From NCBI GenBank assembly GCA_964030475.1, contig CAXIPT010000079.1:21803-85802 (forward strand): DNA of 64,000 nucleotides. Reading direction: 5' to 3'. The position numbers and the translations under genes are program-made. This document shows, in pieces, positions 1 to 60,005 of this stretch (position 1 is the stretch's first letter; every line of letters starts with the position of its first letter). This DNA is from Tethya wilhelma. Its lineage: Eukaryota; Porifera; Demospongiae; Tethyida; Tethyidae. A model generated the notes under the pieces. That model was not told the DNA's origin. It searched no databases and worked only from the letters and a program-made list of their open reading frames with translations.

Positions 1-3000
1 CCTTAAAAAATAGTTTTGTTTATCATAACATTGAAAGTTTAACAATAATTACCTGTACCTATAAAAACAGCTTTGTAACTTTAACCTCAAATATCTCAAA
101 AGTACACTTATGTTAGTTATCCCATTTTTCCACTCAGCCCTTCATTATTACAAGTAGTAAAAATTTCAAAAAATAAGTAGTGTAGGAATGGGCAGTGCGG
201 TAAAAAGCATTGGAACAAGGCATGTCTCAATTTCGGCACATGANGAAATGTTTCTATCTTGAGATTTATTTCGGCAAATCCTAAGGAATGTCAAATTAAA
301 TCATTCATTAGATAGTGTGGCATTTACTTATCGGTATACTATGTTATTAATGTTTCACAGAGAAGTACATATTAATTATTACCATTTGGTTATTATGATT
401 CCAGACAGAACAGCGATGATGATAAGTAGAATAACGATCACTGATGCCATCCCAGCAGTTGTGGGTGTACACGATGACGTTAATGTTGAAGTTGACATAC
501 TAGCGCCTAAAATATTGTATATGTGTATATGTGTGTGTGTATGTGTATGTGTGCATGTGAGTGCTCGTCTGTGCATTTATATATGCATGAACTGAAAATA
601 ATTGTTTATCTTTATTGCCTAGCTGCTGCTCTTAAACTTTCTTTAATGGACAAAGATTAAACAGCAGCAAACCATTATGTTGATGACCTAGCATCTGACT
701 GGACAAACCATTCAATGTTTACTTATACAAGCAAACGGTAAACAACCTTTTGTAGCTCCCACAACAGCAAATGGTCCCACACCAATGTTGTTGACAGCTG
801 CCACCATCACACGATAGCTAGAGGAGGTATTGAGACCAGTTGCTGTGTAGACATTTCTTCCACCTGAGTTGATGTTATCAATGAGCACTGCCCGACTGTC
901 CTTGGGATCGGCTGTCGAAGTAAACACCAGAAAATAGTTTGTTATAAGTCCGTTTCTATGGATACACTCCACACTGTCCCAAGATATGGTGACACTGGTG
1001 GAGGTGGAGGTGATGATGGTGAGGTTTTGAGGGGCTCCAGATGGAACTATACAAATGATGTGTTTACATCAATGAACTATAATAATTACATCAGGTCATG
1101 CAGTGGTGACTTACTAGTGGAATTGGTCATAAATTGAATTGTCACACTATTCAGTGCTTCACTTCGGCTGGCTACAGTTACAGCATAGACACTGTAGGCT
1201 TCCAAATGAAGGGTTAAGATGTTCATCATTGGTACAGCTCTCACTGTCAGGATGTCTTGATCTTGAAATGAGCTGCACTGTCCATCTCTTCCATTCAAGC
1301 GACGATAAGACACAACATATTCATCAACTGCCAATCCTCCTTCTGGTTGGTTCCAGGTGACTTGGACTGATGTGATGTTAGCTAGTTCAACCACTGAAGA
1401 AATCTCAGGAGGTATGATCAAAGCTTGATCTATACATTTAAGTACTATAATTATTATTGCATGGAATAACACACATATAACATTGATACCTTCAAGTGTG
1501 ACTGTTTCCAGAGTACCGAACATTCCTATTCCAGCAATGTTAACAGCAGCAACTTTAATAGAATATCTGATTTCAGGTTGAAGATCAGTTACCATGTATG
1601 TGTAGCTACTGCGTTCATTATTTCTAGCCATTGTTGCTATGTTAAGATCAGTCATCTGATTAGTGTCACCAAGTAGTCCGTATCTTATGAGATAATGAGT
1701 GATGAGTCCGTTTCTACGGATACACTCCACACTGTCCCAAGATATGGTGACACTGGTGGAGGTGGAGGTGATGATGGTGAGGTTTTGAGGGGCTCCAGAT
1801 GGAACTGTATATAATGTTTGGATATAATTATTCTACATGAATGAATTAGTATATATATAATTAGCAGACTGACCATACAGTAACAGTATAGTCTGATTTA
1901 CATACCTGTTGAATTGGTTGAGATGTTAAAACTTGTAGTGTTAAGCAAAGTACCGCCTGTAGTGTTTTCAGCTGTTACATCAACTGAGTAGATACTGTAT
2001 TCTTGCAAGTGTAGAGTGGTGGTATAGCGGGGTCCTTCTCCCCCAGCTCTCACTGTCACACTGCCTTCATCTTGAAATGAGCTACACTGTCCATCTCTTC
2101 CATTCAAGCGACGATAAGACACAACATATTCATCAACTGCCAATCCTCCTTCTGGTTGGTTCCAGGTGACTTGGACTGATGTGATGTTAGCTAGTTCAAC
2201 CACTGAAGAAATCTCAGGAGGTAAAACACCTATTATATTGGTCGAATTGTGACACATTTTAAAGCAGATGCAATGCTATAATAATTATAGAGGTTACTAT
2301 TTCTTATACCTGCTGTTGAAATTTGAATTCCAGAAAGACTCAATCCTCTGACTGAAGCGAAATAGTAATGGTTTGACCTACTAATCAAGCTAACAGTTAT
2401 CTCGTACATTGCCCAAAGTGTCACATCTGTCAATTGATACTCAGTAGAGGCAACATTGGCAATAGTTACCACTTGTAATTGACTACAATTTGTTTGTCCC
2501 CCCAGAGGACATACTCTATACTGGATCTCATATCCATCAAAGAATCCAGAGACAATTGAACTGTTACTAACTCTCCAGGAAATGGTTATGTCTTCAGTAG
2601 TGTGAGATTGCATTGCAGAGCCACTATCTTGATCTATGATATCTTGATTGTGATCTACAAATTAATGTATGGCAATGCATGCATGATTAAACTGATAACT
2701 TATAATCAATTATATGCATTCAAAATTATCAATACCTAATACTGCGAAGCTTGCAGTAACAGGTGTTGTTGTCCTATTATTAGTCACACTGACTCGATAC
2801 ACTCCTGAGAGTCTTCCTCTCACTGTCAGGATGTTGTCATAATTCCCTTCTCTGTATAACCTATCATCTGAGCTGTCAGGTAGAATCCTCTGTGACTGTG
2901 TGTAGTTATCATGGTCTCCAAGAGATGAGATGTCAACTCCATCTCTTGTCCAAGTGACAACTGTAGCTGGTCCTCCAGTGGTTCTGAAGGTGAGGTTGAA

Positions 3001-3816
3001 CTCCACTGGGTCTTCTCTCTCTAGAGAGAACTGGATAGAACCATTAGCTGACAACGAACCTGTGGTGTGTGAAGTATTGTATCATATTCTGTCCTCCCAA
3101 AACAAATATCATTTTTAGTATCTCACCATTACTGCTCAATGGATTAGCATAGACTCCTATGTACTTGGTCTGGTTCACTCCATTAAAGTCAGGAATCTCA
3201 CATCTCCAAATTCCATTGATTAAATAAAGTCGATTGTTATCAGCTGCTCTATTACGAAAGACATAAACTGCCTGTCCATGTCTTGTGATTCCAGCTATGT
3301 GAAGAGGTTTATGAACTTGACAAGAAACATAGCTTTCACTGTGAGGATATCTCCAACTTCCAATACCACTTGGTCTGTACCCAGCCAATGTACCGAAATC
3401 TGGCTCTTCAGTGAAATCTGTACAGCAGCCACTATAGGTAGTACTACACTTCAGTCCCACCATTAGATTCATTCCATTAGGATCAATTCCAATATCCTCA
3501 GTAGTCACCAGTCCATGGTTAGGGATCACCCTGTCTCCTAGACTGATCCTAATACCATCATCTATAGTGTGTGGTGTAGAGACTATTATATAGTGACCAG
3601 TATGGTTTATCAATGCATTCAGATTATTAAACAAACCTTATTAAAGTCAACTAGACTACTAGGCTTTAGTTACAATCATGTACTCAGCCATGTGAGCTAG
3701 CTAGGCTCATGCAGATGATTGAGTAAAGATTATCTTCAATACTTACCTTGACTCTCACAACTGCTGATGAAGACAGCCACTACAATGATAGTGATGATGT
3801 GGGCTGAACTGATCAT
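1..3816 (-). CDS. M1: Ig/FN3 receptor, transmembrane type, 3' end outside window
   Basis: Predicted single-pass cell-surface receptor. Exons, 5' to 3' on the minus strand: 3747-3816 signal peptide (MISSAHIITIIVVAVFISS), 3127-3561 NHGL Ig domain, 2736-3059 cysteine-less Ig, 2310-2654 FN3-A, 1906-2229 FN3-D, 1490-1804 FN3-E, 1115-1423 FN3-D, 747-1046 FN3-E, 383-506 transmembrane helix (ASVIVILLIIIAVLSGIIIT), 245-280 juxtamembrane exon cut by the N at 244. All junctions are GT-AG and phase 1 up to the transmembrane exon. With five FN3 domains it is the longest extracellular region in the cluster. Bases 1-45 match the intron just before the M5 tail exon, so the tail should lie immediately left of the window. 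The FN3-D/E pair is duplicated (exons 5-6 and 7-8). Ligand and function are unknown; a recognition or adhesion receptor is inferred from the domains. Confidence 0.85.
151..243 (+). mobile_element. Left arm of palindromic element, cut by N
   Basis: Starts with CAAGTAGTAAAAATTTC after an A and runs to GGCACATGA, where the N at 244 breaks it. It lies in the last intron of M1. The right arm is missing, as expected if the assembler could not pass the palindrome. Confidence 0.8.
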
Positions 3817-4490: not shown

Positions 4491-7400
4491 TTAATTTGTT
4501 TCTGTGGCCTCATAAGCTGGGCAGGTCTCCATTTGAATGGGGATGATGTTAGCTGGCTGAGAAGAAGAGAGGTGTATTTCATCATAGAGAGCTTCACTTG
4601 GTTTTCTTTGTGTTTCTACCACATCACACTGAGTTGGTGACTGTTTAACACCTATAATACAGTGTTGTGTATACAGTTTATGAAATAATTTGCAAGAACA
4701 AAATTAGTATAAAATAAATTATGATACCATTATTTTTGATGTTGTACCCATGCATGTTATGAGTGTGTGTTTCTCATAGTAACCAATAGTATAAGTGCTC
4801 ACCTTTACAATCTCGATTGGATTTATTTCGGCAAATCCTAATCATAGTCAAAATTTAATATTAATCACATTTTATGTATGACATTGTGGCATTTGTTTGA
4901 TAATGATTCAATTTGTTTAACTATAGACATTAAGTTTAGAATTTGATGTGTTGCAATATTAAGACTTAGTGCATGTATACCAAATAGTTGTGATGATTCC
5001 ATAAGTGACTGTTACAGCAATGATGATGAGTAGAAGAGCAATCACTGTTGCCATCCCAGCAGTCAGAGAAGTAACTGTGGATGACGTTGATGTACTAGTA
5101 CCTAAATTCAGGTCAATAAAAATAAATCAATAAAAAAAAAGGTGTGTGTGACTGCCACGTTAGAAACTCCCCATGGCAGCAAGAGTCAGAATTTGCATTT
5201 TTTTTTTTTTTGCATTTTTTAAACAAGGCATTCAATGTTTATACTTGAAACAGACAAAGAATTATCATAATATTTTACAAACAGTAAACAACCTTTTGTA
5301 GCTCCCACAACAGCAAATGGTCCCACACCAATGTTGTTGACAGCTGCCACCATCACACGATAGCTAGAAGAGGCATTGAGACCAGTTGCTGTGTAGACAT
5401 TTCTTCCACTAGAGTTGATGTTATCAATGATCACTGCCCAACTGTCCTTGGGATCATCTATTGAAGTAAACACCAGAAAATAATTTGTTATGAGTCCGTT
5501 TCTATGGATACACTCCACACTGTCCCAAGATATGGTAACACTGGTGGAGGAGGTAGATTTGACGATAATGAGGTTTTGAGGGGCTCCAGATGGAACTGCA
5601 AATGAGTTGTGCATTGTTTACATTCAATATAATTTAAGGAATGAAGTATTTGATATCCTCCATTCCATAGTAACCAACACTTCACTATTATATAAAAGCC
5701 ACTAAATAACTTGTTATAGGCTTGTGAAAAATTAGAAAGTTTTAAAGCTATTTTTTGGACAAATATCCCACTGAAATATGCAATTTCTTTGCACATAATA
5801 AGTTGTACTGTAGTTTTTAGTGTGTATATGGTTATACAATACATACACACGTGCACTAAAAACCTATATAGTACAAATGGCTTGTACCATAATAATTTTA
5901 TAATGAAGCAATACTTAAATTCATACACTATACCTAGTCAGCTAGTGTGTATGAACTCATACATTAACAATCTTTACATCCCGTTTCTATGTTGTTACTA
6001 AGTAAATTATTTTCCATATTGCACTAACCGCAAACTCATATTGCACTAACCACAAACTCATATTGCACTAACCACAATTGCTTCAGGCATGATTGCACAA
6101 GAGGCTAAAAATGAACAGTTCATAATAGATTTTCAGTGTTTTTTCGCACAAATGGTTTAGACAGGGCCTCCAACTCTTGATCATTCAGCCATTCAGGGTT
6201 TCAAAACGCCTGCTCTTCTTCTTCTTCTTCTTCAAGTTTCTTGATGGTTTAGCTTAACATGGGGCGGAGCTACTTTACTGCATGACGCGCGCGTCGACGA
6301 TGACTAGGGGTGGGTCACTAAAGAGGAGGAGCCAGGTTGAGTGCTTGAACCGAGGCTTGCTTCGTTGTCAGGGAGCAGGCCAGGTCAGAGAGCGGTGGTT
6401 TTAGAGATTTAAAGAAGCTACTAGTTATATTCTACCATTCCCAAGCTAAACCTAGCTGGCACAGAGAGTATTCGAAAGTTTTCTAGCAACGAAAGAGAAA
6501 TAGTTACGAGTTCAGAAGTCGAAGTTGCCATCATACTATACAACTGATTCAAGATGCACTGAATTCGTTTTGGCAAAGGTTTGTTACTAAGCATGAACCC
6601 TTGTTGATAAGTCTCTTAGAAAGCTCTATAGCAACGAGCATAAATGTAGCCATGGTAAAAATGCCTGGGGATGTAAATTACTTATATCACGGGCACGAGG
6701 GATGCATGGCATTTATTGACCTCAGCCCTCGGGCGCTGCGCGCCCTCGGGATTCGGTGCAATAAATGCCATACATCCCTCGTGCCCGTGATATAACTATT
6801 ACATAGGTAGCGTATCAGATATTGTATCCCGGGAAGCCATACTATTAACACATTTTTTCACAGTGTATACCGTATAGCTCCAAATTTTTGTGGTACAATA
6901 TTTTCGTGAATTTCGTGATTTGACCGTATATGACTGAAATTTTCTCCACGTAAATTTAGAAAACCGTATATCGGTAATATAATTTCAGAGATCGTGATTC
7001 ACGAAAATTAGCTCAAAACGGCAAAGACAGATTTTTCACGAACTTTTTGAACCACAAAAATTTGGAGAATTTTTGAAGAAACATGAGCAAGGGAAAAACT
7101 GAGGGCAATATGCATATTTCCCTCAGTTTTCCCCTTCATATCACCCTGGGAGCCGTTCAAGACTCTGAAAAGATACTCCAGCGCTTCAAAGAAACTTTTC
7201 TAACATATACGTGAATTTTAGATAGTGTACATTAGGCCAATGTAAACTAGACGGTGCCATTGAAGTGAGCACTAACTATGGTACAAATATTAGTTGTGGT
7301 ATATTGCTTCAGAATCAAAGCAGGTCATGTGAGACTTTCAGAGAGAATTAAACAACCTGTATAGGTACTTTTCAACCATTTATACAGTATATTTGATGAG

Positions 7401-9440
7401 TATTAGCTATATTAATTTTATAAAGTATGCAGCAATGCATGGTCTACATATAGTAAACATTGATTCAAAGCAATGATTCATTATCCCTAAAATAGTTTCC
7501 TCGATGTTAAGTGTAACCTTAAGTTATAAAAACCGTTTGATGGTGTTTAGGCTGCTTGTCACTGTTTACATATAGAATGTGTATACATCATGACTTACTA
7601 GTGGAATTGGTCGTAAATTGAATGGTTGCACTATTCAGTACCTCACTTCTGCTGGATACAGTTACAGCATAGACACTGTAGGCTTCCAAATGAAGGGTTA
7701 AGGTGTTCATCATTGGTACAGCTCTCACTGTCACGATATCTTGATCTTGAAATGAGCTACACTGTCCATCTCTTCCATTCAAGCGACGATAAGAGACATC
7801 GTATTCATCAACTGTCAAACCTCCTTCTGGTTGGTTCCAGGTGACTTGGACTGACGTGATGTTAGCTAGTTCAACCACTGAAGAAATCACAGGAGATAGA
7901 TCACCTATTACATGGGAAATTGGTCAAATTGTGACACAGTAAGACAATAAATTATAATAATAATAATTATAGCAGTTACTATTAAATTTTCTTATACCTG
8001 CTGTTGAGATTTGAATTCCAGAAAGACTCAATCCTCTGACTGAAGCAAAATAGTAATGGTTTGACCTATTAGTTAAGGCAACACTTATCTCGTACATCGC
8101 TCGTGGAGTCACATCTGTCAATTGATATTTAGTTGAGGAAACAGTGGTAATTGTTACCATGGCCACTTGTTGACCACACTGATTGGTTTCTTCCCCCAGG
8201 AGGCATACTCTATAATGGATCTCATAGCCATGAAAGAATCTCGAGACAATTGAACTGTTGCTTACTCTCCAGGAAATGGTTATGTCTCCAGTAATTGGAG
8301 ATTGCATTGCAGAACCACTGTTCTGAACAATGATGTCTTGGTTGTGATCTAGGAATGTATAGACATGCATCACTGTAAGAAAATGTGATTATTGTGGCAC
8401 TAGCTAGCTGTTGTCAACTTGCCTGGTGGATGTAGAGTTTTTAATCATGCATGTGTGCTTGTTTGGCTAAAGTTAAGTTTTAATGTATACGTTAGCCTCG
8501 TTCCCAAGCTCTCACCTTTGACCTTACACTCACGGTAAGGAAGGAGAACCATGCATGAGTGTAAGGTCAAAGGTGAGAGCCTGGGAACAGGCTAGTATAC
8601 CTAGTACAGTGATGTCAGCAGTAACAGGTGTTGTTGTCCTATCATTAGTCACACTGACTCCATACACTCCTGAGAGTCTTCCTCTCACTGTCAGAATGTT
8701 GTCATAGTTTCCATCTCTGTATAGCCTATCATTTGAGCTATCAGGCCTGACCCTTTGTGATTGTGTGTAGTTATCACGATCTCCAAGAGATGTGACATCA
8801 ACTCCATCTCTTGTCCAAGTGACAACTGTAGCTGGTCCTCCAGTGGTTCTGAAGGTGAGGGTGAACTCTACTGGGTCTTCACTCACTAGAGAGAACTGGA
8901 TAGACCCAACAGTTGACAATGAACCTGTGGTATGTGAAGTATTGTATCATATTCTGTCCTCCCAAAACAATTATCATTCTTATAATATTAGTGTCTCACC
9001 ATTACTGCTCATTGGATTAGCATACACTCCTATGTACTTGGTCTGGTTCACTCCATTAGAGTCAGGAATCTCACATCTCCAGATTCCATTTAGCAAAAAA
9101 AGTCGATTGTTATCAGCTGCTCTATTACGAAAGACATAAACTGCCTGTCCCTGTCTTGTGATTCCAGATATGAAATCCGGTCGATGAATTTGACGAGGAA
9201 CATAATAATTCATTGTAGTGTGAGGAAATCTCCAACTTCCAACACCACTCGGAATCACGCCATTTATAGTATCCAAATCAGGTGTTTCAGTGAAATCTGT
9301 ACAGCAGTCACTATAGGTAGTGCTACACTTCAGTCCCTCTGTTAGATTCATTCCATCAGGATCAATTCCAATATCCTCAGTAGTCACCAGTCCATGGTTA
9401 GGGATCACCCTGTCTCCTAGACTGATCCTAATACCATCAT
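4491..9440 (-). CDS. M2: Ig/FN3 receptor, transmembrane type, signal exon missing
   Basis: Exons: 9000-9440 NHGL Ig, 8601-8924 cysteine-less Ig, 7998-8348 FN3-A, 7599-7904 FN3-D, 5293-5595 FN3-E, 4981-5101 transmembrane (ATVIALLLIIIAVTVTYGII), 4803-4837 juxtamembrane (WICRNKSNRDCK), 4491-4651 tail with stop TAA at 4491-4493. The frame is open throughout. The signal exon should lie beyond the N at 9734. The tail reads GVKQSPTQCDVVE then ALYDEIHL and ends METCPAYEATETN; the first tyrosine of the sister tail (TEYDVV in M5) is Cys here, leaving YDEI and PAYEA. The 2-kb intron 5596-7598 is packed with foldback repeats. A small transposon sits exactly at the donor of the second Ig exon. Confidence 0.85.
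6015..6078. repeat. 22-bp tandem repeat, three units
   Basis: Three units of CATATTGCACTAACCRCAAACT in the long M2 intron. Units 2 and 3 are nearly identical. Confidence 0.85.
6682..6795. mobile_element. 114-bp foldback element
   Basis: Arms start TTATATCACGGGCACGAGGG and end CCCTCGTGCCCGTGATATAA, each about 37 bp, around a GC-rich centre (CTCGGGCGCTGCGCGCCCTC). No clear target duplication was seen. MITE-like, in the M2 intron. Confidence 0.75.
6878..7066. mobile_element. 189-bp foldback element
   Basis: Terminal arms CTCCAAATTTTTGTGGT and ACCACAAAAATTTGGAG are perfect inverses. Inner TTCACGAA-like stretches are also inverted. No clear target duplication. Confidence 0.75.
7091..7135. repeat. 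Short perfect hairpin
   Basis: GGGAAAAACTGAGGG is followed after 15 nt by CCCTCAGTTTTCCCC. Nearly perfect 14-15 bp stem directly after the 189-bp foldback; it may be part of a larger unrecognised element. Confidence 0.6.
8493..8594. mobile_element. TAGCC...GGCTA foldback MITE at a splice donor
   Basis: Arms TAGCCTCGTTCCCAAGCTCT and AGAGCCTGGGAACAGGCTA continue inward through a shared ACCTTTGACCTTACACTCA stretch. Flanked by GTATACGT (8485-8492) and GTATACCT (8595-8602), an 8-bp target duplication with one mismatch. The right copy contains the functional donor of the M2 second Ig exon. Confidence 0.85.
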
Positions 9441-12090: not shown

Positions 12091-14998
12091 CTATGGTCGA
12101 CTTCGTGCTATGCAAACCTCGATGCAATGAGCAACATCAGGGTTGTCCTCATCAAACAGGCATTGTTTCTCAGCAGCCACTGGTTTCCCACACTCTGAAT
12201 CATCAAATGAGGCTATACCAACTGGACAACTTGGGTTCACTTTCACTGAGTACCACTGGACAGTCATAGAAGGAGCTGATGCTACCCAATCTTGTATGAA
12301 CTGTACCAGCTCTGTGTCGTAGTGTGTGTGTGTACCAATGATGGAGCTTCTGTAAGTGGTCTGCTCTTTAGAGTGGACACAACTGAACACTCCACTGAGA
12401 AGATTTTCTTCAGGAATATTGCAGTGGCATCTTTTGTGAAGGACCTCAATGAGTTTTGAGTGGATGTTTGTCCTGATTTCTTCCGCCTTGTCAGCCTGCA
12501 TGTATTAATTGTAAGTTATATTCTAGAAGTAACATGTATCATCATACTTACGTTCCAAGTGATGCAATCATCAGTACGGCTTATCATGAGTTGGAAATCT
12601 TTTGGAAATGCTATGTTGTAAAAAAAAAGTATACATTCACAATCCATTAAAATATTTGAGATTTTAATTCTTTTTACTTCCAAGAGTTTTCCCATCAGTA
12701 ACAGCTTCTATTCCCACTCCATCATCATTCCCAGCAGCCACTTTAAATACATACAGTGAGGAAGGCTTGAGACCGTCAACTGTATAGCTCCCATCACTCT
12801 CTTGTTCATTGTTGCCGATGGTTACTCGAATGGTTGTCACGTTTGTCATCTCTGAATCACTGTTGGAAGTCTTAGGACCATAGCTGATGATGTAATGGGT
12901 AATGATGGGTCCGTTTCTATGGATACACTCCACACTGTCCCAAGATATGGTGACACTGGTGGAGGTGGAGGTGATGATGGTGAGGTTTTGAGGGGCTCCA
13001 GATGGAACTGGAAAATGAAATATTTGTGTCAGAATCAATATAATTCTAGAGTAATGCTAAAATTATGTACCATATATATACCTGTTGAATTGGTCATGAT
13101 GCTATAACTTGTGGTATTGTACAAATCTCCAAGAAGTTTCCTAGCAGTTATATTGCAAGTATATACACTGTAAGCCTCTAGGTGTAGAGTGGCAGTATAG
13201 GGTCCTTCTCCCTCAGCTCTCACTGTCACACTGCCTTCATCTTGAAATGAGCTACTGCACTGTCCATCTCTTCCATTCAAGTGGCGATAAGATACAACAT
13301 ATTCATCAACTGCCAATCCTCCTTCTGGTTGGTTTAAGATGACTTGGACTGATGTGATGTTAGCTAATTCAGCCACTGAAGAAACCTCAGGAGGTAGAAC
13401 ACCTTTAATTTATTATGCATCAGAAATGATATCATAGTCTGAGAAATCTGATAAGTATTAATGTTTTGTACCTGTTGTTGAGACTTCAATTCCATAAATT
13501 CTCAAGCCTCTGACTGAAGTAAGATAGAAATAAGGTGACCTATCAATCAAGGTTACAATTATCTTGTACATTGCCCAAAGTGTCACATCTGTCAGTTGAT
13601 ACTCAGTGGAATCAGTATCAGCAGTAGTTACCACTTGCGGTCGAATACGTGCACACCCAGGTTGTCCCCCCAGAGGACATACTCTATACTGGATCACATA
13701 TCCACCAAAGAGTCTGGAGACAATTGAACTGTTGCTTACTCTCCAGGAAATGGTTATGTCTCCAGTAGTGGGAGATTGCATTGCAGAACCACTATCTTGA
13801 TCTAAGGTATTATCTTGATTATGATCTACAAATGCATGGCATTTCATACATGAAACTGATAACTTATGCATTCAAAATCAATTTTAGTGAAGCATTATCA
13901 ATACCTAATAATGCGATGCTTGCAGTAACAGGTGTTGTTGTCCTATTATTAGCCACACTGATTTCATACAGTCCTGAAAGTCTTCCTCTCACTGTCAGGA
14001 TGTTGTCATAGTGTCCATCTCTATATAGCTTATTATCTGAGCTGTCAGGCCTGGCCCTCTGTGACTGTGTGTAGTTATCACTGTCTCCAAGAGATGAGAT
14101 GTCAACTCCATCTCTTGTCCAAGTGACAACTGTAGCTGGTCCTCCAGTGGTTCTGAAGGTGAGGGTGAATTCCACTGGGTCTACTCTACTCTCTAGAGAA
14201 ATCTGGATAGAGTCAACAGCTGACAATGAACCTGTGGTATGTGAAGTATTGTATCATATTTTATCCTTCAAAAACAATTATCATTCTTAGTGTCTCACCA
14301 TTACTGCTCATTGAATTAGCATAGACTCCTATGTACTTGGTCCTCTCCACTCCATTAGAGTCAGGAATCTCACATCTCCAGATTCCATTTAGTAAATAAA
14401 GTCGATTGTTATCCTCTGCTCTATTACGAAAGACATAAACTGCCTGTCCATGTCGTGTGATTCCAGATATGTGATAAGAAAGATCGACTTGACGAGAAAC
14501 ATAGCTATTACTGTGAGCATATCTCCAACTTCCGATACCACTTGGACTGTACCCAAACAATATATTATTATTGACATCTGGTGCTTCAGTGAAATCTGTA
14601 CAGCAGTCACTATAGGTAGTACTACACTTCAGTCCCTCCGTTAGATTCATTCCATCAGGATCAATTCCAATATCCTCAGTAGTCACCAGTCCATGGTTAG
14701 GGATCACTCTGTCTCCTAGACTGATCCTAATACCATCATCTATAGCGTGTGATGTAGAGACTATTATAATTATAGTGATAACTATGGTTTAACAATGCAT
14801 TCAGATTGTTAAACAAATTTCATTAATGTCCACGCTACTAGGTTTTTATTATAATCATGTGCTCAACCATGTGAGCCAGCTAGGCTCATGCAGATCGATG
14901 ATTGACTATATATAGCTTTAATACTTACCTTGGCTCTCACAACTGCTGGTGAAGACAGTCACTACAATGATAGTGATGATGTGGGCTGAACTGATCAT
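12091..14998 (-). CDS. M3: Ig/FN3 protein with SEA-like C-terminus, predicted secreted (768 aa)
   Basis: Complete gene. Exons: 14929-14998 signal peptide (MISSAHIITIIVVTVFTSS), 14299-14739 NHGL Ig, 13905-14231 cysteine-less Ig, 13472-13825 FN3-A, 13082-13402 FN3-D, 12678-13007 FN3-E, 12552-12610 and 12091-12495 SEA-like module ending CIEVCIARSRP and TAG. Exon lengths total 2,307 nt in one open frame. The last module has about ten cysteines and the core GVFSCVHSKEQTTYRSS then LVQFIQDWVASAP, which I compare to SEA domains by pattern only. No hydrophobic helix follows, so secretion is inferred. In FN3-D the core VTWNQ of its sisters is VILNQ, losing the usual Trp. Confidence 0.88.
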
Positions 14999-38472: not shown

Positions 38473-38523
38473 TTTAATGTACTGACTATGATTATTATTA
38501 TAACTTTGTGATAATTAATTTAT

Positions 38524-38790
38524 GAGCTGGGACAGTATTGAATGTATCCATAGAAACAGATCCATTACCCATTACATCATCAGCTATGGTCCTAAGACTT
38601 CCAACAATGATTCAGATGTGATAAACACGACAACCATTCGAGTAACCATCGGCAATGATGAACAAGAGAGTGGTGGGAGCTACACAGTTGACGGTCTTAA
38701 GCCTTCCTCATTCTATGTGTTCAAAGTGGCTGCTGGGAATGATGATGGAGTGGGAATATAGGCTGTTACTTAAGGGAAAACACTCGAAAG
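38524..38790 (+). pseudogene. Relic FN3-E exon between P1 and SEA exons
   Basis: Keeps ECIHRN through NDDGVGI in frame but lacks the 5' third with its acceptor, and has in-frame stops (TAG at 38759, then TAA). It is the longest of three relics found directly after transmembrane-type genes. Confidence 0.8.
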
Positions 38791-38857
38791 TAAAAAAGAA
38801 ATAAAATCTTAAATAAATTAATTGAATTTGAGTGTATACTCTATTTTTATAACATAG

Positions 38858-39384
38858 CACTCCCAAAACATTTCCAACTGGTGATAAGCCGTACTGATAA
38901 CTGCATCACTTGGAATGTAAGTATAATGATGTATAATGATGTATCTAGCATAATAACTTACAATTAATACACTCAGGCTGACAAGGCAGAAGAAATCAGG
39001 ACAAACATCCACTCAAAACTCTTGGAAGTCATTCATGAAAGATGCCACTGCAACTTTCCTGAAGAGAATCTTCTCAGTGGAGTGTTCAGTTGTGTTCACT
39101 CTAAAGAGCAGACCACTTACAGAAGCTCCATCACTGGTACACACACACACTACGACACAGAGCTGGTACAGTTCATACAAGATTGGGTAGCATCAGCTCC
39201 TACTATGACTGTCCAGTGGTACTCAGTGAAAGTGAACCCCAGTTGTCCAGTTTGTATAACCTCATTTGATGATCCAGAGTGTGGAAAACCAATGGCTGCT
39301 GAGAAACAATGCCTGTTTGATGAGGACAACCCTGATGTTGCTCATTGCATCGAGGTTTGCATAGCACGTAGTCGCAGAGACTGA
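38858..39384 (+). CDS. SEA-like exon pair downstream of P1
   Basis: Exons 38858-38916 (LPKHFQLVISRTDNCITWN) and 38977-39384 (ADKAEEIRTNIHSK to CIARSRRD and TGA), both with intact splice sites and open frames. The upstream FN3-E is dead, so these exons are either stranded or used as an alternative 3' end of P1: splicing from the donor at 37742 keeps the frame and gives a secreted NHGL-Ig-FN3x3-SEA form. Small changes (PVCITSF for PVGIASF) do not break it. Confidence 0.65.
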
Positions 39385-40427: not shown

Positions 40428-40454
40428 TAATTATTATGAAGCAAATGATACCCC

Positions 40455-41032: not shown

Positions 41033-41112
41033 GAGACCATTCCTTGTTCCAATACTTTTTACAGCACTTCCCATTCCTACACTGCTTATTTTTTAAAAAT
41101 TTTTACTACTTG
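41033..41112 (-). mobile_element. Palindrome arm at a contig start, inside an FN3 exon
   Basis: Runs from GAGACCATTCCTTGTTCC to TTTTTACTACTTG, then directly into FN3-B coding sequence at 41113. The other side of this insertion appears to be at 53050. Confidence 0.82.
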
Positions 41113-50676: not shown

Positions 50677-50684
50677 TTATATTC

Positions 50685-51388: not shown

Positions 51389-53049
51389 ATGACTAGTTCA
51401 GCCCACATCATCACTATCATTGTAGCGACTGTCTTCACCAGCAGTTGTGAGAGTCAAGGTATGTGGTATCAAAGCTAATCTCATGTACTCAATCATCTGC
51501 ATGAGCCTACCTAGCTCACATGGTTGAGCACATGATTGTAACTAAGGCATAGTAGTCTAGTTGACTTGAATAAGGTTTGTTTAACAATCTGAATTTATTG
51601 TTAAACCATAATATTATAGTTGTCACTATATAATAGTCTCTACATCACACGCTATAGATGATGGTATTAGGATCAGTCTAGGAGACAGGGTGATCCCTAA
51701 CCATGGACTGGTGACTACTGAGGATATAGGAATTGATCCTAATGGAATGAATCTAATGGTGGGACTGAAATGTAGCACTACCTATAGTGGCTGCTGTCCA
51801 GATTCAACGGAAACACCAAATTCCATTATATGGGATGGATGGGGTTCAAGTGGTATTGGAAGTTGGAGATTTCCTCACATTACAAATTATTATGTTCCTC
51901 GTCAAATTCATCGACCTGATTTCATATCTGGAATCACAAGACAGGGACAGGCAGTTTATGTCTTTCGTAATAGAGCAGCTGATAATAACCGACTTTATTT
52001 AATCAATGGGATCTGGAGATGTGATATTCCTGACTCTAATGGAGTGGAGAGGACCAAGTACATAGGAGTCTATGCTAATCCAATTAGCACTAACGGTGAG
52101 GCACTAAGAATTTAATAATAATTTTTTGGGAGGACAGACTATGAAGCAATACTTCACTGACACACCACAGGTTCCTTGTCAGCTGTTGGGTCTATCCAGT
52201 TCTCTCTAGTGAGTGAAGACCCAGTGGAGTTCACCCTCACCTTCAGAACAACTGGAGGACCAGCTACAGTTGTCACTTGGACAAGAGATGGAGTTGACAT
52301 CTCATCTCTTAGAAACCATGATAACTACACACAGTCACAGAGGGTCAGGCCTGATAGCTCAAATGATAGGCTATACAGAGATGGAAACTATGACAACATC
52401 CTGACAGTGAGAGGAAGACTCTCAGGAGTGTATGGAGTCAGTGTGACTAATGATAGGACAACAACACCTGTTACCACAGATCCTGTTACTGTGATAGGTA
52501 ATACTTTTATCACAACATACTACAATCATATAGCCTCATTCCCATGGAGGCTCTCACCTTTGACCTTACACTCATTGTAAGGAAAGAGAGCTTAGGATTA
52601 GGATCAGTCTAGGAGACAGGGTGATCCCCAACCATGGACTGGTGACTACTGAGGTATCTCTCCTTCCTAACTGTACACGTGAGTGTATGTAAGGTCAAAT
52701 GTGAGAGTGTGGGAACAAGGCAATGTTGTTTTAGTTAACCCTCAAAACCCTTAGTTAGTTATTGATTATAGTTTCTCACCAAATTATATTAAGGTTCAGT
52801 AGAAAATTTTCTGTTATAGAATCCATATTATTTAATATTATGATAAAAATTCTATGTTTAATGATTAACTTAATTATATTGCATGGCTGTCATTGGTATG
52901 CCATGCATGAAGTTTAAAGTATTGTTAATTAAAACACAGATCCTTCAACTTCATCAAGTATTTCTCTAACTACAACACTCTCTGAAGACCTCACAAGTAT
53001 CAGTTTGTCATGGACCTTGAACACACAATCATCACTCACAGTTGGATCA
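51389..53049 (+). pseudogene. P4: Ig/FN3 receptor 5' half, FN3 exon broken by transposon
   Basis: Exons: 51389-51458 signal peptide (MTSSAHIITIIVATVFTSS), 51658-52095 NHGL Ig, 52171-52497 cysteine-less Ig, 52940-53049 first third of FN3-B, which stops at GGATCA where the composite element begins. There is no GT donor at the break, so the element would not be removed as an intron. The likely continuation is P2 (41113-42703). The NHGL loop (NSIIWDGWGSSGIGSW) is almost that of P6, marking these as the closest pair. A MITE carrying a piece of NHGL exon lies in the intron after the second Ig exon. Confidence 0.8.
52531..52722 (+). mobile_element. TAGCC-type MITE carrying a captured NHGL exon fragment
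   Basis: Left arm TAGCCTCATTCCCATGGAGG then ACCTTTGACCTTACACTCA; right arm the inverse ending GGGAACAAGGCA. Where the 8493 copy has a short loop, this one holds 58 bp (52597-52654) matching the start of the NHGL exon (RISLGDRVIPNHGLVTTE) with one mismatch to P4's own exon. Confidence 0.85.
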
Positions 53050-53300
53050 TCATACGTACGGTAGTACGTATAGTAGGAATGGGCTGACTGTCCCATAGAC
53101 ACAATACAAAATGTTGGTCACTATAAAAATCTAGCAAAATAAAATTAAGTCTTTAAACTTGCTCAGAGGCTCTCACTGACAGATTACTAATTGCATGCAA
53201 GGCCTAACACTCACAAAAACTTTCCTCAGCGCTCGTAGAGAGCGCTAGTGGGAAGCCACAAGAGTGCCATTTTTGTTCATCTACTTACTTCCTAACTGAC
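53050..53300 (-). mobile_element. Composite element, hairpin end and part of tail
   Basis: TCATACGTACGGTAGTACG directly after coding GGATCA. The tail follows the family to CCTAACTGACTTA, then switches to unrelated sequence. Confidence 0.82.
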
Positions 53301-53512: not shown

Positions 53513-55959
53513 GAGGGTAAAATAATTGACATTATCATGATAATAGTGAAATATTAATGTTAGCTTTGCTTCTCCAGCTGGGGTAGATTTCAGTGCAGTT
53601 GATGAGGCACTGGTGTTCCCAGCTTCACAGGCACCAGTAGAGGAATGTGTGGACATTAGTATTTTTGAAGATAATAGAATTGAACAAGTGGAGGGATTTA
53701 CCATCGATGTGACGACCACTTCTTCAGAGATATTTCTTACAGGAGTAACGTTACCACTTTCACCACTTATAACTGACACAAGTGGTAAGCAGGTGGCAAC
53801 TATAGTATAACCACTATACACACATTAATAATTATTTTATGCATGTATGCATGGGCATTAACTATTATAATTATTGATAAATATCATCAGGAAATCAAAT
53901 TTTGATTTAATGTATACAGTGGCAGTATTTGGATTTGCCCAACCATCCTACGATCTTTCAGAGGACAGTAACACATTAGTGTGTGTGGTCACTAATACAA
54001 ATATTGATGATCCTATTTCTACCCGAGTAGTAACTCTATCAGCTATGGCAGGCACAGCAGATGGTACTTTAACTTAATTTTTGCGATCCAACACATTGAT
54101 AATAATTATGAACAAGCCATAATACACGTTTCTCTTACAGCCAATGATGACTTTGCCCCGCCCTCTATTGATTTGACCTTTGAATCAAACACACCTCCTG
54201 AAGGAGAGTGTATTTCCCCTGGTATCAACGATGACAACAATGTGGAGAATCTGGAGTCATACACAATTTCCATTGCATCGATCTGGTGCTACTAGCCCTG
54301 GCTTTGATACAACCATTATAAACATCATAGATGATGATGGTTAGTATAATATACAACCATCTGCTGCCAGATTGTAATTTGCAATGAGCTACATTGCTGT
54401 CCACACTTTATTACTGTCATGCAGGTGTTAACATTAGATTTAATTCTCCATTGATCACTCTGGATGAACTTGATGCTGGAGCAACCTCAGAAATAGAGCT
54501 GTGTCTCACTGTATCTCCACCCCCTGGGGCTTTGGGACTTCAGAGAGATGTGATAGTGACTCTCACAACTGAGGATGGAACTGCTAATTCAGGAGTTGAC
54601 TTTGAGCCCCTAAATGCAATGCTGACATTTTCACCAGGCAATGTAAGTTGTATACAATCATGCATGATTGAACCACTAAAATTTAAATTCACCAGACAAA
54701 TATGGTACTACAATAGCTTGAAATGTGCGAGATAGTTACAGTCTTTGGTGACAATCTGACTGAAGCAAATGAAACGTTCACAGTAAGTGGAATGGCAGAA
54801 AATGTCCTGGACATATTTTTGAATGAAGCAAGTATCACAATCATTGACAATGGAGGTGAGATACAGTGAATAAGCAAGACATCAATCAACTGCCTCAATA
54901 ACCAGAAAAGAAAACCACAGATGTCAATTGCTGAAATTCAGAGATTTGCTTGTTTCAATACTTAAAGCACTGCCCATTCCTACACTTCTCATTTTACTAA
55001 AATTTTTACTACTTGTAATAATAATAGTATTAATTCTGGCACATATATCTATTCAGTTCCATCTGGAGCCCCTCAAAACCTCACCATCATCACCTCCACC
55101 TCCACCAGTGTCACCATATCTTGGGACAGTGTGGAGTGTATCCATAGAAACGGACTCATTACCCATTACATCATCAGCTATGGTCCTAAGACTTCCAACA
55201 ATGATTCAGAGATGATAAATATGACAACCATTCGAGTAACCATCGGTAACAATGAACAGGAGACTGGTGGGAGCTACACAGTTGACGGTCTTAAGCCTTC
55301 CTCACTGTATGTGTTCAAAGTGGCTGCTGGGAATGATGCTGGAGTGGGAATAAATGCTGTTACTGAAGGGAAAACACTTGGAAGTAAAAAAGGAAAAAAA
55401 AAACTAACAAAATTAATTAATTGATTGTGTATGTATACCCTTTTTTATAACATAGCACTCCCAAAAGATTTCCAACTCATGATAAGCCGCACTGATGACT
55501 GCATCGCTTGGAATGTAAGTACAATGATGTATAATGATGTATCTAGCAAAAAATAGCTTACAATTAACACAGGCTGACAAGGCTGAAGAAATCAGGACAA
55601 ACATCCGCTCAAAACTCTTTGAAGTCCTTCAGGAAAGATGCCACTGCAACTTTCCTGAAGAGAATCTTCTCAGTGGAGTGTTCAGTTGTGTCCACTCTAA
55701 AGAGCAGACCACTTACAGAAGCTCCATCATTGGTACACACACACACTACGACACAGAGCTGGTACAGTTCATACAAGATTGGGTAGCATCAGCTCCTACT
55801 ATGACTGTCCAGTGGTACTCAGTGAAAGTGAACCCAAGTTGTCCAGTTGGTATAGCCTCATTTGATGATCCAGAGTGTGGGAATGAGAAACAATGCCTGT
55901 TTGATGAGGACAACCCTGACATTGCTCATTGCATCGAGGTTTGCATAGCACGAAGTTGA
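53513..55959 (+). CDS. P5: Calx-beta/FN3 protein with SEA-like C-terminus, 5' cut, frameshift
   Basis: Exons: 53513-53516 (last 4 nt of the exon before), 53578-53784, 53920-54063, 54141-54339, 54425-54642, 54717-54855 (Calx-beta region), 55057-55383 FN3-E, 55456-55514 and 55573-55959 SEA-like module ending CIARS and TGA. Same Calx-beta modules as M4 but a SEA end instead of transmembrane and tail. Exon 54141-54339 has 4 extra nt (GCATCGATCTGG against GCATCTGG in M4), which shifts the frame into TAG. The exon damaged in M4 is intact here (FTVSGMAENVLDIFLNEAS). The SEA module lacks the KPMAA residues. It is either a pseudogene or carries a sequence error. Confidence 0.75.
54935..55017 (-). mobile_element. 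Decayed single palindrome arm in P5
   Basis: GAAATTCAGAGATTTGCTTG to TTTTTACTACTTG, at the intron position matching 16435-16530 of M4. Shared ancestral insertion. Confidence 0.7.
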
Positions 55960-56514
55960 CCATAATGGCCAACCAAGAGACAAGTAACTGTTATAGTAAA
56001 CAGTAATCTAACACTCCCTGGATATTAAGATTGCTAGTATGAAACTTAGCTCAGCTTTATGTAATGTATAGGCTTGAACAAATCTTGTAGCAACCTAACT
56101 TGTGTCAGAGATTGTTGAGAATAGAGATGATGTGGTCTACAGTACGTGTCATTCAGAGAGGACTGGACAGAGCCATGGAGCAGCCATAGTATTTTGATTT
56201 ACTTAGAATCTCTATATATACACCACTAATGGACAAATGTAATTGTGTGACAAGAATTTGTGTCCACCCTGGATTCATAAGAACTTGATTCAGCAGGGAG
56301 TTGGGCACTTGGGGATTCTTCTAAAATCAGTATAATTATAATAAAAAATAATAATGTACTCTAAGAATTATTAACCCATGAAATCCAGCTGCCAACGTGA
56401 AAACAATAAGCATATGCTGGCGAATCACTTACTAGCAAGTAGCAAAGTTTATTTGGTATTCGTGTACTGTTTTCCATGCCCCAGAGCATTACTCTTTCTG
56501 GACTTACTGAGCAA
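55960..56514 (+). repeat. Conserved 3' flank of P5
   Basis: Same segments as after P2 and P3, with a private insert around 56105-56180. Confidence 0.6.
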
Positions 56515-57040
56515 AGGTGACTCAATCAATATGCATTACAAGAACAAACCAATGTTGTAATTCTACAAGCTATAGCTTGTATTCAAACATGCATATTGAA
56601 TATCATTACCTTAACGAGTTTTGTATGTGTTGGGAAGGATTAGACCTAGCACAGGGTCAGCCCATCAACTCCACCCACTACCATGATCACACACATCACA
56701 GTAAGCACACAGGGGAGATTTGATCCCTCAACTACAAACCATGTGCTCACAATGGCCGAAAGAGCTACTGACACAAGACCGAACACCAAGTGTCACATGA
56801 CTAGCGTATCTCCCATGGAAACACCTCAACAGGGTGGGCTGGTCAATTCAACACTCAAAAACATAATCATACACATTGTGCACAGTCGTGGTTTGACTCT
56901 GTAACTATAGAAACCCTGTGCACATAATTCACAATAGAAAAAGGCCATGCTGAAACAGGATGCTGAGTATGTTGTAAATTTACATGCTTCACCTTGTACT
57001 TAACCCACATTTTTGCATCTCATTAGCTCGAGCGAGTTAT
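56515..57040 (+). repeat. Conserved intergenic block, copy 6
   Basis: Both frames intact (56517-56723 and 56683-56904); closest to the consensus of all copies. Confidence 0.7.
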
Positions 57041-57497: not shown

Positions 57498-60005
57498 ATG
57501 ACTAGTTCAGCCCACATCATCACCATCATTGTAGTGGCTGTCTTCACCAGCAGTTGTGAGAGTCAAGGTATGTGGTATCAAAGCTACAGCTTTAAAGCTG
57601 CATGGGCCTAGCTAGCATGGTTGAGTCTGGCAAGCATGTAATAAAGCCTTAAGTTTTTTTTTAATAATCTGAATCTATAGATGATGGTATTAGGATCAGT
57701 CTAGGAGACAGGGTGATCCCTAACCATGGACTAGTGACTACTGAGGATATTGGAATTGATCCTACTGGAATGAATCTAATGGTGGGACTGAAGTGTAATA
57801 CTACCTATAGTGGCTGCTGTCCAGATTCCACGAAAACACCAAATTCCATTATATGGGATGGATGGGGTTCAAGTGGTATTGGAAGTTGGAGATTTCCTCA
57901 CATTACAAATAATTATGTTCCTCGTCAAATTCATCGATCTGGTTTCATATCTGGAATCACACGACATGGACAGGCAGTTTATGTCTTTCGTAATAGAGCA
58001 GAGGATAATAACCGACTATATTTAATCAATGGGATCTGGAGATGTGATATTCCTGACTCTAATGGAGTGGAGAGGACCAAGTACATAGGAGTCTATGCTA
58101 ATTCAATGAGCAGTAATGGTGAGACACTAAGAATTTAATAATATTTGTTTTGGGAGGACAGACTATGAAGCAATACTTCACACACTACAGGTTCCTTGTC
58201 AGCTGTTGGCTCTATCCAGTTCTCTCTAGTGAGAGAAGACCCAGTGGAGTTCACCCTCACCTTCAGAACCACAGGAGGACCAGCTACAGTTGTCACTTGG
58301 ACAAGAGATGGAGTTGACATCTCATCTCTTGGAGACCATGATCACTACACACCATCACAGAGGGTCAGGCCTGATAACTCAAATCCTGGGCTATACAGAG
58401 ATGGTATCTATGCCAACATCCTGACAGTGAGAGGAAGACTCTCAGGAGTGTATCGAGTCAGTGTTACTAATGATAGGACAACAAGACCTGTTACTGCAAG
58501 CTTCGCAGTATTAGGTATTGATAAAGCTTCACTAAAAGATTAATTTTGAACGCATGTTATCAAGAGTATTATACAATAGCAGGGGGAGAGTATTGAACTA
58601 CCCTATGGTAGCCATCGGCAATAAATATGCACGAGGAAAAAGGCGGGCTTAACTTTTCAACTCGCAAAATATAAAGTATGCACTGGGGAAGGCCTGGGAA
58701 CGAGGCTAACCCTATAGTACTGTGTTACAACTGTTTGAAGGGTTCATGACCTTTATAATGTAATTCATAGGCATAAGAACGGCCTACCACTGAAAGTACA
58801 AGTAATCATGCAACATTTCCATACATTAATTTGTAGATCACAATCAAGACATCATCGATCAAGATAGTGGTTCTGCAATGCAATCTCCCATTACTGGAGA
58901 CATAACAATTTCCTGGAGAGTTAGTAGCAGTTCAATTGTCTCGAGATTCTTTGATGGATATGTGATCCAGTATAGAGTATGTCCCTTTGGGGGAGAAACA
59001 AGTTGTGGCCAATTACAAGTGGTAACTATTGCCAATGTTGCCTCTACTGAGTATCAATTGACAGATGTGACACTGTGGGCAATGTACGAGATAACTGTTA
59101 GCTTGATTAGTAGGTCAAACCATTACTATTTTGCTTCAGTCAGAGGATTGAGTATTTCTGGAATTGAAGTCTCAACAACAGGTAGAGAACATTAATACTT
59201 ATCAGCTTTCTCAAACTATGATATCATTGACAAATTTCCCAACACAGGTGTTCTACCTCCTGAGATTACTTCAGTGGTTGAACTAGCTAACATCACATCA
59301 GTCCAAGTCACCTGGAACCAACCAGAAGGAGGATTGGCAGTTGATGAGTATGTTGTGTCTTATCGTCGCTTAAATGGAAGAGATGGACAATGTAGCTCAT
59401 TTGATGAAGGCAGTGTGACAGTGAGAGCTGAGGGAGAAGGACCCTATACCACCACTCTACACCACTTAGAGGCTTACAGTGTCTACTCTTGCAATATAAC
59501 TGCTAGGAAACGCCTTGGAGATTTGTACAATACCACAAGTTATAACATCATGACCAATTCAACAGGTATACATAAGTCTATTATTGTGCTACATGTGACT
59601 AGAATAATTATTATTGATCTCTGACATACAAATCTTAATTTTCCAACAATGCATTCATGAATCATTTTCAAGTTCCATCTGGAGCCCCTCAAAACCTCAC
59701 CATCATCACCTCCACCTCCACCAGTGTCAACATATCTTGGGACAGTGTGGAGTGTATTCGTAGAAATGTACTCATTACCCATTACATCATCAGCTATGGT
59801 CCTAAGACTTCCAACAATGATTCAGATCTAGAGGTGATAAAAATGACAACCATTCGAGTAACCATCAGCAACAATGAACAACAGAGTGGTGGAAGTTACA
59901 CAGTTGACGGTCTTAAGCCTTCCTCACTGTATGTGTTCAAAGTGGCTGCTGGGAATGATGATGGAGTGGGATTAGAAGCTGCTACTGAAGGGAAAACTCT
60001 TGAAA
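57498..60005 (+). CDS. P6: Ig/FN3 protein, 3' end cut by N
   Basis: Exons: 57498-57567 signal peptide (MTSSAHIITIIVVAVFTSS), 57681-58118 NHGL Ig, 58191-58514 cysteine-less Ig, 58837-59181 FN3-A, 59248-59565 FN3-D, 59673-60005 FN3-E. Frame open. The FN3-E is of the class that precedes SEA exons (GPKTSNNDSD..VAAGNDDGVG), so a SEA-like, probably secreted end is expected beyond the N at 60029. The last donor (AAA/GTACAA) is followed by a run of A up to the gap. FN3-D lacks two residues (SSFDEGS for SSFQDEGS) and has an extra H (LHHLEAYS). Confidence 0.85.
58609..58708. mobile_element. 100-bp TAGCC...GGCTA element
   Basis: Begins TAGCCATCGGC, ends GGCCTGGGAACGAGGCTA. Flanked by ACCCTATGG (58600-58608) and ACCCTATAG (58709-58717), a 9-bp duplication with one mismatch. 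Arms are worn, but the end matches the 8493 element. Confidence 0.75.

Follow-up and report, generated by a model that had tools for sequence, protein, structure and literature searches.

Diversified recognition families and the Tethya wilhelma receptor cluster

To our knowledge, the genes behind self/non-self discrimination in sponges are unsettled. The sponge aggregation factors feature Calx-beta domains in a recognition context along with a Wreath domain, and in arthropods Dscam combines diversified Ig exons with FN3 modules. Here we describe a family of modular receptor genes built of NHGL, Ig and FN3 exons, two of them with Calx-beta heads, several of which are clustered in a 64,000-nucleotide stretch of the demosponge Tethya wilhelma (hereinafter the window: G000:C79:21803-85802, the right three quarters of the 85,802-base contig C79, i.e., CAXIPT010000079.1 of assembly GCA_964030475.1). 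What is new is a set of three short blocks of DNA, two within the Ig exon and one within FN_B, that hardly differ between copies; we read them as marks of putative segmental gene conversion shuffling receptor parts. On balance, we lean toward the view that the window is part of a genome-wide, diversified family of immunoglobulin superfamily (IgSF) receptors, with membrane and secreted forms, that is shuffled by segmental recombination at these blocks.

Several described systems offer partial parallels. By gene layout only, the family can be likened to the Hydractinia Alr genes of the allorecognition complex (ARC), which are clustered single-pass IgSF genes with a tail, accompanied by pseudogenes (PMC11067881); mosaic copies are a further likeness. 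The sponge genes differ from Alr in that they contain NHGL and FN3 modules, lie at dispersed loci, carry blocks frozen as DNA and include SEA-like ends that lack a transmembrane (TM) segment. The sea urchin Sp185/333 (SpTransformer) genes are likewise clustered immune genes of mosaic elements, for which recombination or gene conversion has been proposed (PMC5103432). However, their elements lie in one exon and short tandem repeats were proposed as drivers, whereas in the sponge each segment is a portion of an Ig or FN3 exon, and the window holds only eight such arrays. In lamprey VLR and in chicken Ig conversion, a cassette or pseudo-V segment can be copied into the receptor gene thanks to shared identical sequence (PMC8129030); those processes are somatic, whereas the present pattern is known from one assembly. 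Exon 2 of HLA-DRB1 has fully conserved stretches within a hypervariable exon, proposed as an aid to recombination (PMC2408603), which measure 3-13 bases among alleles of one locus as against 44-60 bases in ~60 paralogues here. Finally, unlike these sponge genes, Dscam relies on alternatively spliced exon arrays, and gene conversion among the exon copies was reportedly not found there (PMC3236188); Dscam-type arrays of alternative Ig exons were not found among the linked gene models, each of which has one near-complete Ig exon.

The self/non-self specificity of sponge grafts points to a polymorphic genetic system (PMC5450542). Within the open-licence literature, as far as titles and abstract starts go and with subscription papers outside the scope, we found no description of an NHGL/Ig/FN3 family or of such blocks in Ig exons. 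The family thus far uncovered provides a concrete candidate set of tips, tails and SEA-like ends for sponge self/non-self recognition, and recombination at exon-internal blocks frozen as DNA is proposed as a testable route to their diversity. If true, an animal without adaptive immunity would reshuffle Ig parts in its germline, with breakpoints at predicted positions.

DNA blocks nearly identical among copies of the Ig and FN_B exons

The three blocks, each of about 44-60 bases, lie in the Ig exon (two) and the FN_B exon (one), and are near-identical in ~60 copies, synonymous sites included. Searches of the 124.6-Mb assembly (204 contigs) with at most 3 mismatches allowed recovered 64 places for block 1 (29 exact), 60 for block 2 (34 exact) and 58 for the FN_B block (22 exact), and the reversed patterns used as controls gave 0 matches for all three. 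By eye, all 64 block-1 places fall inside the 68 Ig places of the family; the g3 copy of block 2 lies more than 3 mismatches away.

Tests of synonymous variation and of linkage were run on near-complete, stop-free exons lacking any N, which for Ig are 29 of the 68 family places, drawn from several contigs. The synonymous difference (pS) is 0.02-0.06 in windows inside the nearly unvarying Ig codons ~25-47 and 0.05-0.08 in codons 76-96, and about 0.27-0.52 in the Ig windows around and between the blocks. In FN_B it drops to 0.02 in codons ~13-36, being 0.16-0.27 just before them and up to 0.69 later. Similarly, 44-mers taken from the Ig blocks (starting at codons 21-31 and 76-81) matched 27-29 of the 29 copies within 3 mismatches, and those from between the blocks (starting at codons 46-66) matched 1-4. 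The synonymous difference in Ig codons 28-42 is 0.020 versus an exon mean of 0.159, a value as low in 4 of 5000 shuffles; for FN_B codons 18-32 it is 0.018 versus 0.197, with 0 of 5000 shuffles as low. Such clustering is weaker in NHGL (246 of 5000) and FN_C (161 of 5000), and FN_A shows none (2667 of 5000).

That the blocks owe their identity to constraint on the protein was rejected on the ratio of non-synonymous to synonymous changes: counted as distinct changes over the 29 copies, it is 0.49 and 0.61 in the two Ig blocks versus 0.42 in the rest of the exon. Variants recovered genome-wide give 0.58 and 0.41, values which, at up to 3 mismatches, leave out the most diverged copies. Thus, with a ratio like that of the rest of the exon, the blocks are either young or recently homogenised, or constrained as DNA or RNA, rather than being more constrained as protein.

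Loss of linkage across the blocks

Linkage was assessed by comparing paralogue distances segment by segment, genes being joined only where no N intervenes between neighboring domains. In this assembly linkage is lost across each of the blocks: r=0.14 (p=0.10) for Ig_N with Ig_mid across block 1, r=-0.06 for Ig_mid with Ig_C across block 2, and r=0.06 for FN_A with FB_3 across the FN_B block. Across introns it is r=0.71 for Ig_C with FN_A and r=0.72 for FB_3 with FC_2, and the two halves of FN_A give 0.92. The split-half reliability of the six segments is 0.81-0.99, and dropping 3 near-duplicates of the 29 altered the linkage values little. The FN_C exon was also considered as the chief swap point for the NHGL genes, and was rejected on account of the linkage between FB_3 and FC_2. 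From these patterns we infer conversion as the likely cause; they suggest that recombination has acted over a long period and has not yet broken up recent duplicates.

Under this proposal, new receptors would arise by tandem duplication and by segmental recombination, either gene conversion or ectopic crossing-over, between copies. Recombination would use the short Ig and FN_B blocks and keep homogenising them, such that the variable segments between them assort among genes, while phase-1 introns would allow exchange of whole heads and 3′ ends. A typical product would be a receptor with an Ig-like NHGL tip bearing a variable middle, a cysteine-less Ig domain and usually three FN3 modules; the membrane forms, predicted to be single-pass with short tyrosine tails, would stand beside the secreted ones. 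Varied ligands of microbial or conspecific origin are probably bound by the tip, and the phosphorylated tail probably signals via SH2 proteins. A kinase would not fit into exons as short as those of the tails, so signaling is something we infer. Our best guess at the function is a diversified recognition family, immune or conspecific; the findings would fit either immunity or allorecognition.

Architecture of the receptor genes

Profiles made from the window's own exons identified signal-peptide, NHGL, Ig, FN_A/FN_A2, FN_B, FN_C, Calx, TM_A, TM_B, tail and SEA-like exons, which make up 14 related genes or gene parts, on the minus strand at 383-31,794 and on the plus strand at 31,796-60,005. 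This agrees with the first-pass annotation, made from the letters alone, which counted at least 13. Its further claim of one domain per exon with phase-1 boundaries holds for most junctions. Using the best-scoring predicted splice sites of near-complete exons from this contig and 12 related loci, phase-1 donors were found in NHGL (27/27), Ig (29/29), FN_A (17/17), FN_B (22/22), FN_C (20/23) and signal-peptide exons (15/15), and phase-1 acceptors in NHGL (27/27), Ig (25/29), FN_A (16/17), FN_B (16/22), FN_C (21/23) and the tails (7/10). The claim fails for the TM donors, which are in phase 2 (14/14), the Calx1 donor (phase 0, 2/2) and the SEA-like acceptor (phase 0, 5/6). In the SEA-like genes, FN_C is separated from the SEA-like exon by a further exon of 59 bases, which had been missed.

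Statements on module combinations are confined to pieces free of N. In these, NHGL heads occur with TM_A (g1, g2, g5), TM_B (g6, g9) or a SEA-like end (g3, g11), and Calx heads with TM_B (g4) or a SEA-like end (53,550-55,962), so that the mixing of the same modules in different combinations is borne out, as is the pairing of both kinds of heads with both kinds of ends, except that both Calx chimeras are frameshifted. The genes without a TM segment and with a SEA-like end probably code for secreted forms. In the membrane genes a small juxtamembrane exon precedes a tail with two conserved tyrosines: these recur in g2, g5, g6 and g9, with the motif EA-[LV]-YDEI in g2 and g5 and AIYEEP in g6 and g9. 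All four of these tails, and hence both tail types, end in METCPAYE-x-(T/A)-x-x-N.

Seven of the eight spliced models (g1, g2, g5, g6, g9, g11 and g13) have no internal stop; the stop in the eighth, g3, arises from the SEA acceptor chosen for the model, and a site at 12495 avoids it. Some of the FN_C donors picked in these models are probably too early. Genome-wide, 42 of the 45 best-scoring NHGL places have no stop in the match (full or near-full length, at least 63% identity; frameshifts not counted). Thus, the genes are not mainly pseudogenes, although several in the window are remnants or cut by an N (g7, g8, g10, g12, and FN_C relics behind TM_B tails).

The Calx exons of both window copies match a gene at C1:1.13 Mb (L051) at 82-87% identity over exons and introns. 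This gene, itself apparently a receptor, codes for Calx-beta domains followed by a Sushi-like module (by eye) and a TM segment, and is the likely source of the Calx heads. In both copies the match ends after Calx1b and FN_C follows within ~150 bases, a stretch in which part of a dispersed repeat can be made out by eye; compared with each other, the two Calx genes match up to a point inside FN_C. Compared with the gene on C1, the minus-strand copy has a frame-shifting 10-base deletion in Calx1b and the plus-strand copy a 4-base insertion in Calx2. They look like foreign Calx heads joined to 3′ ends of the family, with both products broken unless the indels are assembly errors; hence, we rejected the Calx mosaics as working receptors. 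They also differ from the sponge aggregation factors in this respect, in that their heads match a gene of Calx, Sushi-like and TM parts and sit in broken chimeras.

Identity of the domains

A profile of 27 copies of the Ig module retrieves titin Ig domains from the PDB (best E=4.7e-7), and the one exon tested against Pfam Ig_3 falls under the cut-off (E=0.0099). Both positions of the canonical cysteine pair lack Cys in the 27 aligned copies. Since some true Ig domains have lost this pair, its absence does not exclude an Ig fold. A distant relative (L043) combines in one frame NHGL-like and SEA-like domains, a TM segment and an Ig domain in which both cysteines are present; hence, the Ig of the window probably lost its pair.

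The NHGL module displays a C...W...GxxxC pattern (C39, W72, G119 and C123), invariant over 6 divergent forms. It has no match in Pfam; its profile finds the NCAM2 Ig domain in the PDB (E=0.0013), but adiponectin ranks above it (1.7e-4), and the best E-values obtained from the PDB were 0.13 for the module by itself and 0.97 for its alignment. Its part between the CC and GQAVY motifs is hypervariable, with the non-synonymous difference (pN) up to 0.52, changes of length, and pN/pS of 0.89-1.13 in windows starting at codons 49-81. The highest window pN is 0.52 in NHGL, 0.54 in FN_C (where it is tied to the type of 3′ end), 0.44 in FN_A and 0.37 in Ig; with FN_C and FN_A similar to NHGL, variation is not confined to the tip.

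With one exon per type tested, FN_C exceeds the cut-off of 25 bits for Pfam fn3 (56.2 bits), FN_A does not reach it (15.6 bits), and FN_B gives a weak FN3-like match only. Calx1 scores 45 bits against PF03160 (cut-off 27), Calx2 and Calx3 are below the cut-off, and Calx4 has no match. The assignment of the 3′ end to SEA gained no support from profile searches, as neither the window exon nor its relatives match the Pfam SEA domain (PF01390); a protein search with the exon and a PDB search with the family profile likewise returned no match, and the order of strands and helices, by eye only, suggests SEA.

The genome-wide family and its counterpart in a second species

Place counts in the genome are lower bounds and include fragments. 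There are 80 NHGL places: 44 at C6:1.99-2.39 Mb, 13 on C79, 6 on C9, 6 on C2, 4 on C3, 3 elsewhere on C6 and 4 on C1. The window as the genome's main complex was thus rejected, the cluster on C6 having more copies. Of the 115 Ig places, 68, at 58% identity or above, constitute the receptor family of the window, and a further 47 lie at 32-51% identity. SEA-like exons number 98 places, TAIL_A 22, TAIL_B 16 and Calx1 5. Two clusters of genes with distantly related Ig and SEA-like domains were seen at C1:14.8-15.5 Mb (holding 29 of the 47 distant Ig places) and C1:25.1-25.8 Mb, and some relatives elsewhere have tyrosine-rich tails.

Homologues outside this assembly (28 NHGL and 14 Ig) came only from ENA contigs of up to 4 Mb and, being at most 68% identical, are taken to belong to another species. 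The NHGL tree, in which long branches meet, contains a short-type group of 3 T. wilhelma and 6 foreign sequences and a long-type group of 24 and 22, respectively, with 100/99 support. Both mix the two species, and thus at least two lineages predate the split. Like those of T. wilhelma, the foreign Ig domains lack the cysteine pair in all 14 cases (one is truncated near the second position). All 14 keep the core of block 1, with a variable site that is Y in 13 and H in 1; the same site in T. wilhelma is V in 58 of 64 copies, F in 5 and N in 1. T. wilhelma genes of both NHGL lineages carry the block of their own species, the partners of the short type (w32614, w45212 and L028_3010) being 2, 0 and 0 mismatches away. 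A species-specific block residue despite older lineages would fit concerted evolution; transfer of Ig exons between the lineages after the split would look the same.

Weighing the alternatives

Several observations weigh against a recognition family shuffled at the blocks. In the main FN_A subtype (n=12), the linkage of Ig_C with FN_A is 0.04 and that of Ig_mid with FN_A, which spans block 2, is 0.30 (p=0.038); therefore, it is only the deep subtypes that account for the linkage across introns, and the block has not fully removed linkage between its two sides. Nearest neighbors agree across the blocks above permutation (Ig_N/Ig_mid 8/29, Ig_mid/Ig_C 5/29, FN_A/FB_3 6/18), so recent duplicates are still linked, and there is one odd long-range link, Ig_N with FB_2 (r=0.51). 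There is no clear positive selection, the median dN/dS being 0.26-0.64 by domain and exceeding 1 in 12 of the 351 pairs for NHGL and 18 of the 406 for Ig, and in Amphimedon grafts neither cell-adhesion nor aggregation-factor genes were reported to be significantly enriched (PMC5450542). The main rival, an assembly artefact, would have identical repeats of ~60 bases mis-joined or homogenised by a short-read or polished assembly, generating false mosaics and false identity. Indeed, the longest exact match between Ig copies has a median of 61 bases (at least 64 in 166 of 406 pairs), a length where a short-read assembler can make chimeras; single Ns act as joins in the contig; and one of 14 single Ns in the contig and four related loci (L033-L036), at L035:8272, falls in the FN_B block. 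Yet the other 13 lie outside the blocks, and the N-free pieces of the window, of 2.7-22 kb, run through several paralogues. Moreover, the conserved core recurs in the second species, on long ENA contigs, where a different residue is the commonest, and the proteins P0029, P0030, P0032 and P0033, read by eye, display all four combinations of Ig_N and Ig_mid types. We deem an artefact unlikely.

A recognition role is also dispensed with if these are ordinary adhesion or matrix receptors that underwent tandem duplication and neutral concerted evolution. A dN/dS mostly below 1, the variation beyond the tip and the abundance of related Ig and SEA-like places across the assembly agree with this, as do reported sponge expansions of Ig and FN3 domains, partly in combinations with SRCR (PMC4772301, PMC6208332), but the hypervariable, length-changing middle of the NHGL tip and the swapping of heads and 3′ ends between genes do not, leaving it doubtful. 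In a strict allorecognition complex, the alleles of the cluster would determine whether fusion or rejection follows, as they do in the ARC of Hydractinia. The parallel described there is a cluster of single-pass IgSF genes that have tyrosine tails and include mosaic as well as broken copies (PMC11067881); such a complex too appears unlikely, with the copies spread over at least six contigs rather than gathered in one complex. The blocks might instead be constrained as DNA or RNA (for splicing control, or as a small-RNA target or a regulatory or recombinase site), recombination being incidental. That synonymous and non-synonymous changes are lowered alike and that the blocks occur family-wide favor this, but the second species has a different codon within block 1 in 14/14 copies (Y or H for V) and constraint alone would not erase linkage across a block, making it rather improbable. 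Least probable, in our view, is that the blocks are dedicated homology handles of a programmed, perhaps somatic, gene conversion that would reassemble Ig tips from some 60 germline donors; if true, an early-branching animal would have a receptor diversification system akin to that of VLRs. As to the earlier proposal of a recognition locus at this site, what stands is a clustered, mosaic IgSF family with tyrosine tails, probably some secreted members, and support for recombination between copies, a process that recognition families employ; the window is only a part of a genome-wide family, and its Calx mosaics are broken.

Features of the window and minor observations

Contig C79 contains 10 single Ns, 8 of them in the window, which look like scaffold joins. 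Among the paralogue matches listed (up to nine per search across each N), none spans any N beyond a few bases. With 1,500 bases taken from each flank, one paralogue was closely colinear with both flanks at 2 of the 10 (244 and 34502), and the gene order across these is thus supported; the remaining 8 have no colinear paralogue (two Ns) or only pairs from short or repeated matches. At 31795, the middle of an FN_B on one strand switches to the middle of an Ig on the other, and the right edge of the cluster (60,005) also abuts an N. The tandem arrangement proposed earlier is hence sustained as regards clustering, with an order that crosses these joins and several members that are remnants. Table 1 collects the features.

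Table 1. Receptor genes, blocks and other features of the window (positions in bases; aa, amino acids)
Feature	Position	Strand	Composition and remarks
g1	383..3816	-	signal peptide, NHGL, Ig, FN_A, FN_B, FN_C, FN_B, FN_C, TM_A; open, 817 aa up to the TM exon; tail likely beyond the N at 244, the order there being backed by the colinear paralogue
g2	4491..9440	-	NHGL, Ig, FN_A, FN_B, FN_C, TM_A, juxtamembrane exon, tyrosine tail; open, 659 aa; signal-peptide exon not found before the N at 9734
g3	12091..14998	-	signal peptide, NHGL, Ig, FN_A, FN_B, FN_C, 59-base exon, SEA-like end; no TM; product read as secreted (predicted)
g4	15345..19927	-	Calx4-3-2-1-1b, FN_C, TM_B, tail; 10-base frame-shifting deletion in Calx1b
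g5	22727..26925	-	signal peptide, NHGL, Ig, FN_A2, FN_B, FN_C, TM_A, tyrosine tail; open, 669 aa
g6	27291..30073	-	NHGL, Ig, FN_A2-like, FN_B, FN_C, TM_B, tyrosine tail; open, 655 aa; signal-peptide exon not found
g7	30595..31794	-	3′ part only: FN_B cut by N 31795, FN_C, TM_B, tail
g8	31796..32938	+	partial: second half of Ig, then NHGL (short type), Ig
g9	35464..38472	+	signal peptide, NHGL, Ig, FN_A2, FN_B, FN_C, TM_B, tyrosine tail; open, 695 aa
Region behind g9	38522..39384	+	FN_C remnant with two stops, then open 59-base exon and SEA-like exon
g10	41098..42703	+	FN_A2 (cut near N 41032), FN_B, FN_C, SEA-like; 5′ part missing
g11	44430..47354	+	signal peptide, NHGL (short type), Ig, FN_A2, FN_B, FN_C, 59-base exon, SEA-like; open, 724 aa
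g12	51389..53058	+	signal peptide, NHGL, Ig, first third of FN_A2; stops short of N 53512
Calx gene	53550..55962	+	Calx3-2-1-1b, FN_C, SEA-like; 4-base frame-shifting insertion in Calx2
g13	57498..60005	+	signal peptide, NHGL, Ig, FN_A, FN_B, FN_C; cut by N 60029; open, 596 aa up to the N
Block 1, Ig exon of g3	14108..14151	-	other starts 2939, 8804, 25107, 29417, 32692, 36251, 45287, 52248, 58268
Block 2, Ig exon of g2	8647..8691	-	other starts 2782, 24950, 29263, 31836, 32845, 36407, 45443, 52404, 58424
FN_B block, FN_B exon of g1	2139..2182	-	other starts 1330, 7814, 13312, 24230, 28651, 37092, 41459, 46085, 59295
Single Ns	244, 9734, 31795, 34502, 41032, 49055, 53512, 60029		interpreted as scaffold joins
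Conserved ~300-base element upstream of g13	56630..56950	+	other copies near 11080, 20840, 34520, 43335, 48045

The SEA-like exon behind g9 could possibly supply an alternative secreted end by alternative splicing, giving membrane and secreted forms of one gene, or be a relic; FN_C relics occupy the same place behind g4 and g6. At L035:3296-3634 and 9348-9686, two loci in opposite orientation, separated by a few kb that include an N, encode identical Ig proteins; this is likely assembly redundancy or a young inverted repeat. To the right of the last N, the window (60030-64000) is without family exons and has a strong GC skew (-0.25 at 60-62 kb); this part may not belong beside the cluster.

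An Rfam scan gave 0 matches at gathering scores. A ~1-kb element, 82-86% identical within the contig, occurs at 18808-19759, 25813-26839, 39407-40429 and 49671-50683, and pieces of it sit at several Ns and, by eye, at Calx-FN_C junctions. A dispersed element of ~640 bases (21362-22000) has at least 39 other places in the genome at 91-96% identity, among the best candidates scored. The ~300-base element found upstream of genes has core windows 96-99% alike in the contig and holds an open frame of 84 aa; it has 20 places in the genome, on C79, C3, C5, C6, C9 and C1, none of them in the main C6 cluster. Several NHGL exons also contain antisense open frames of ~80 aa (e.g., 14396-14644), which are probably a by-product of codon use.

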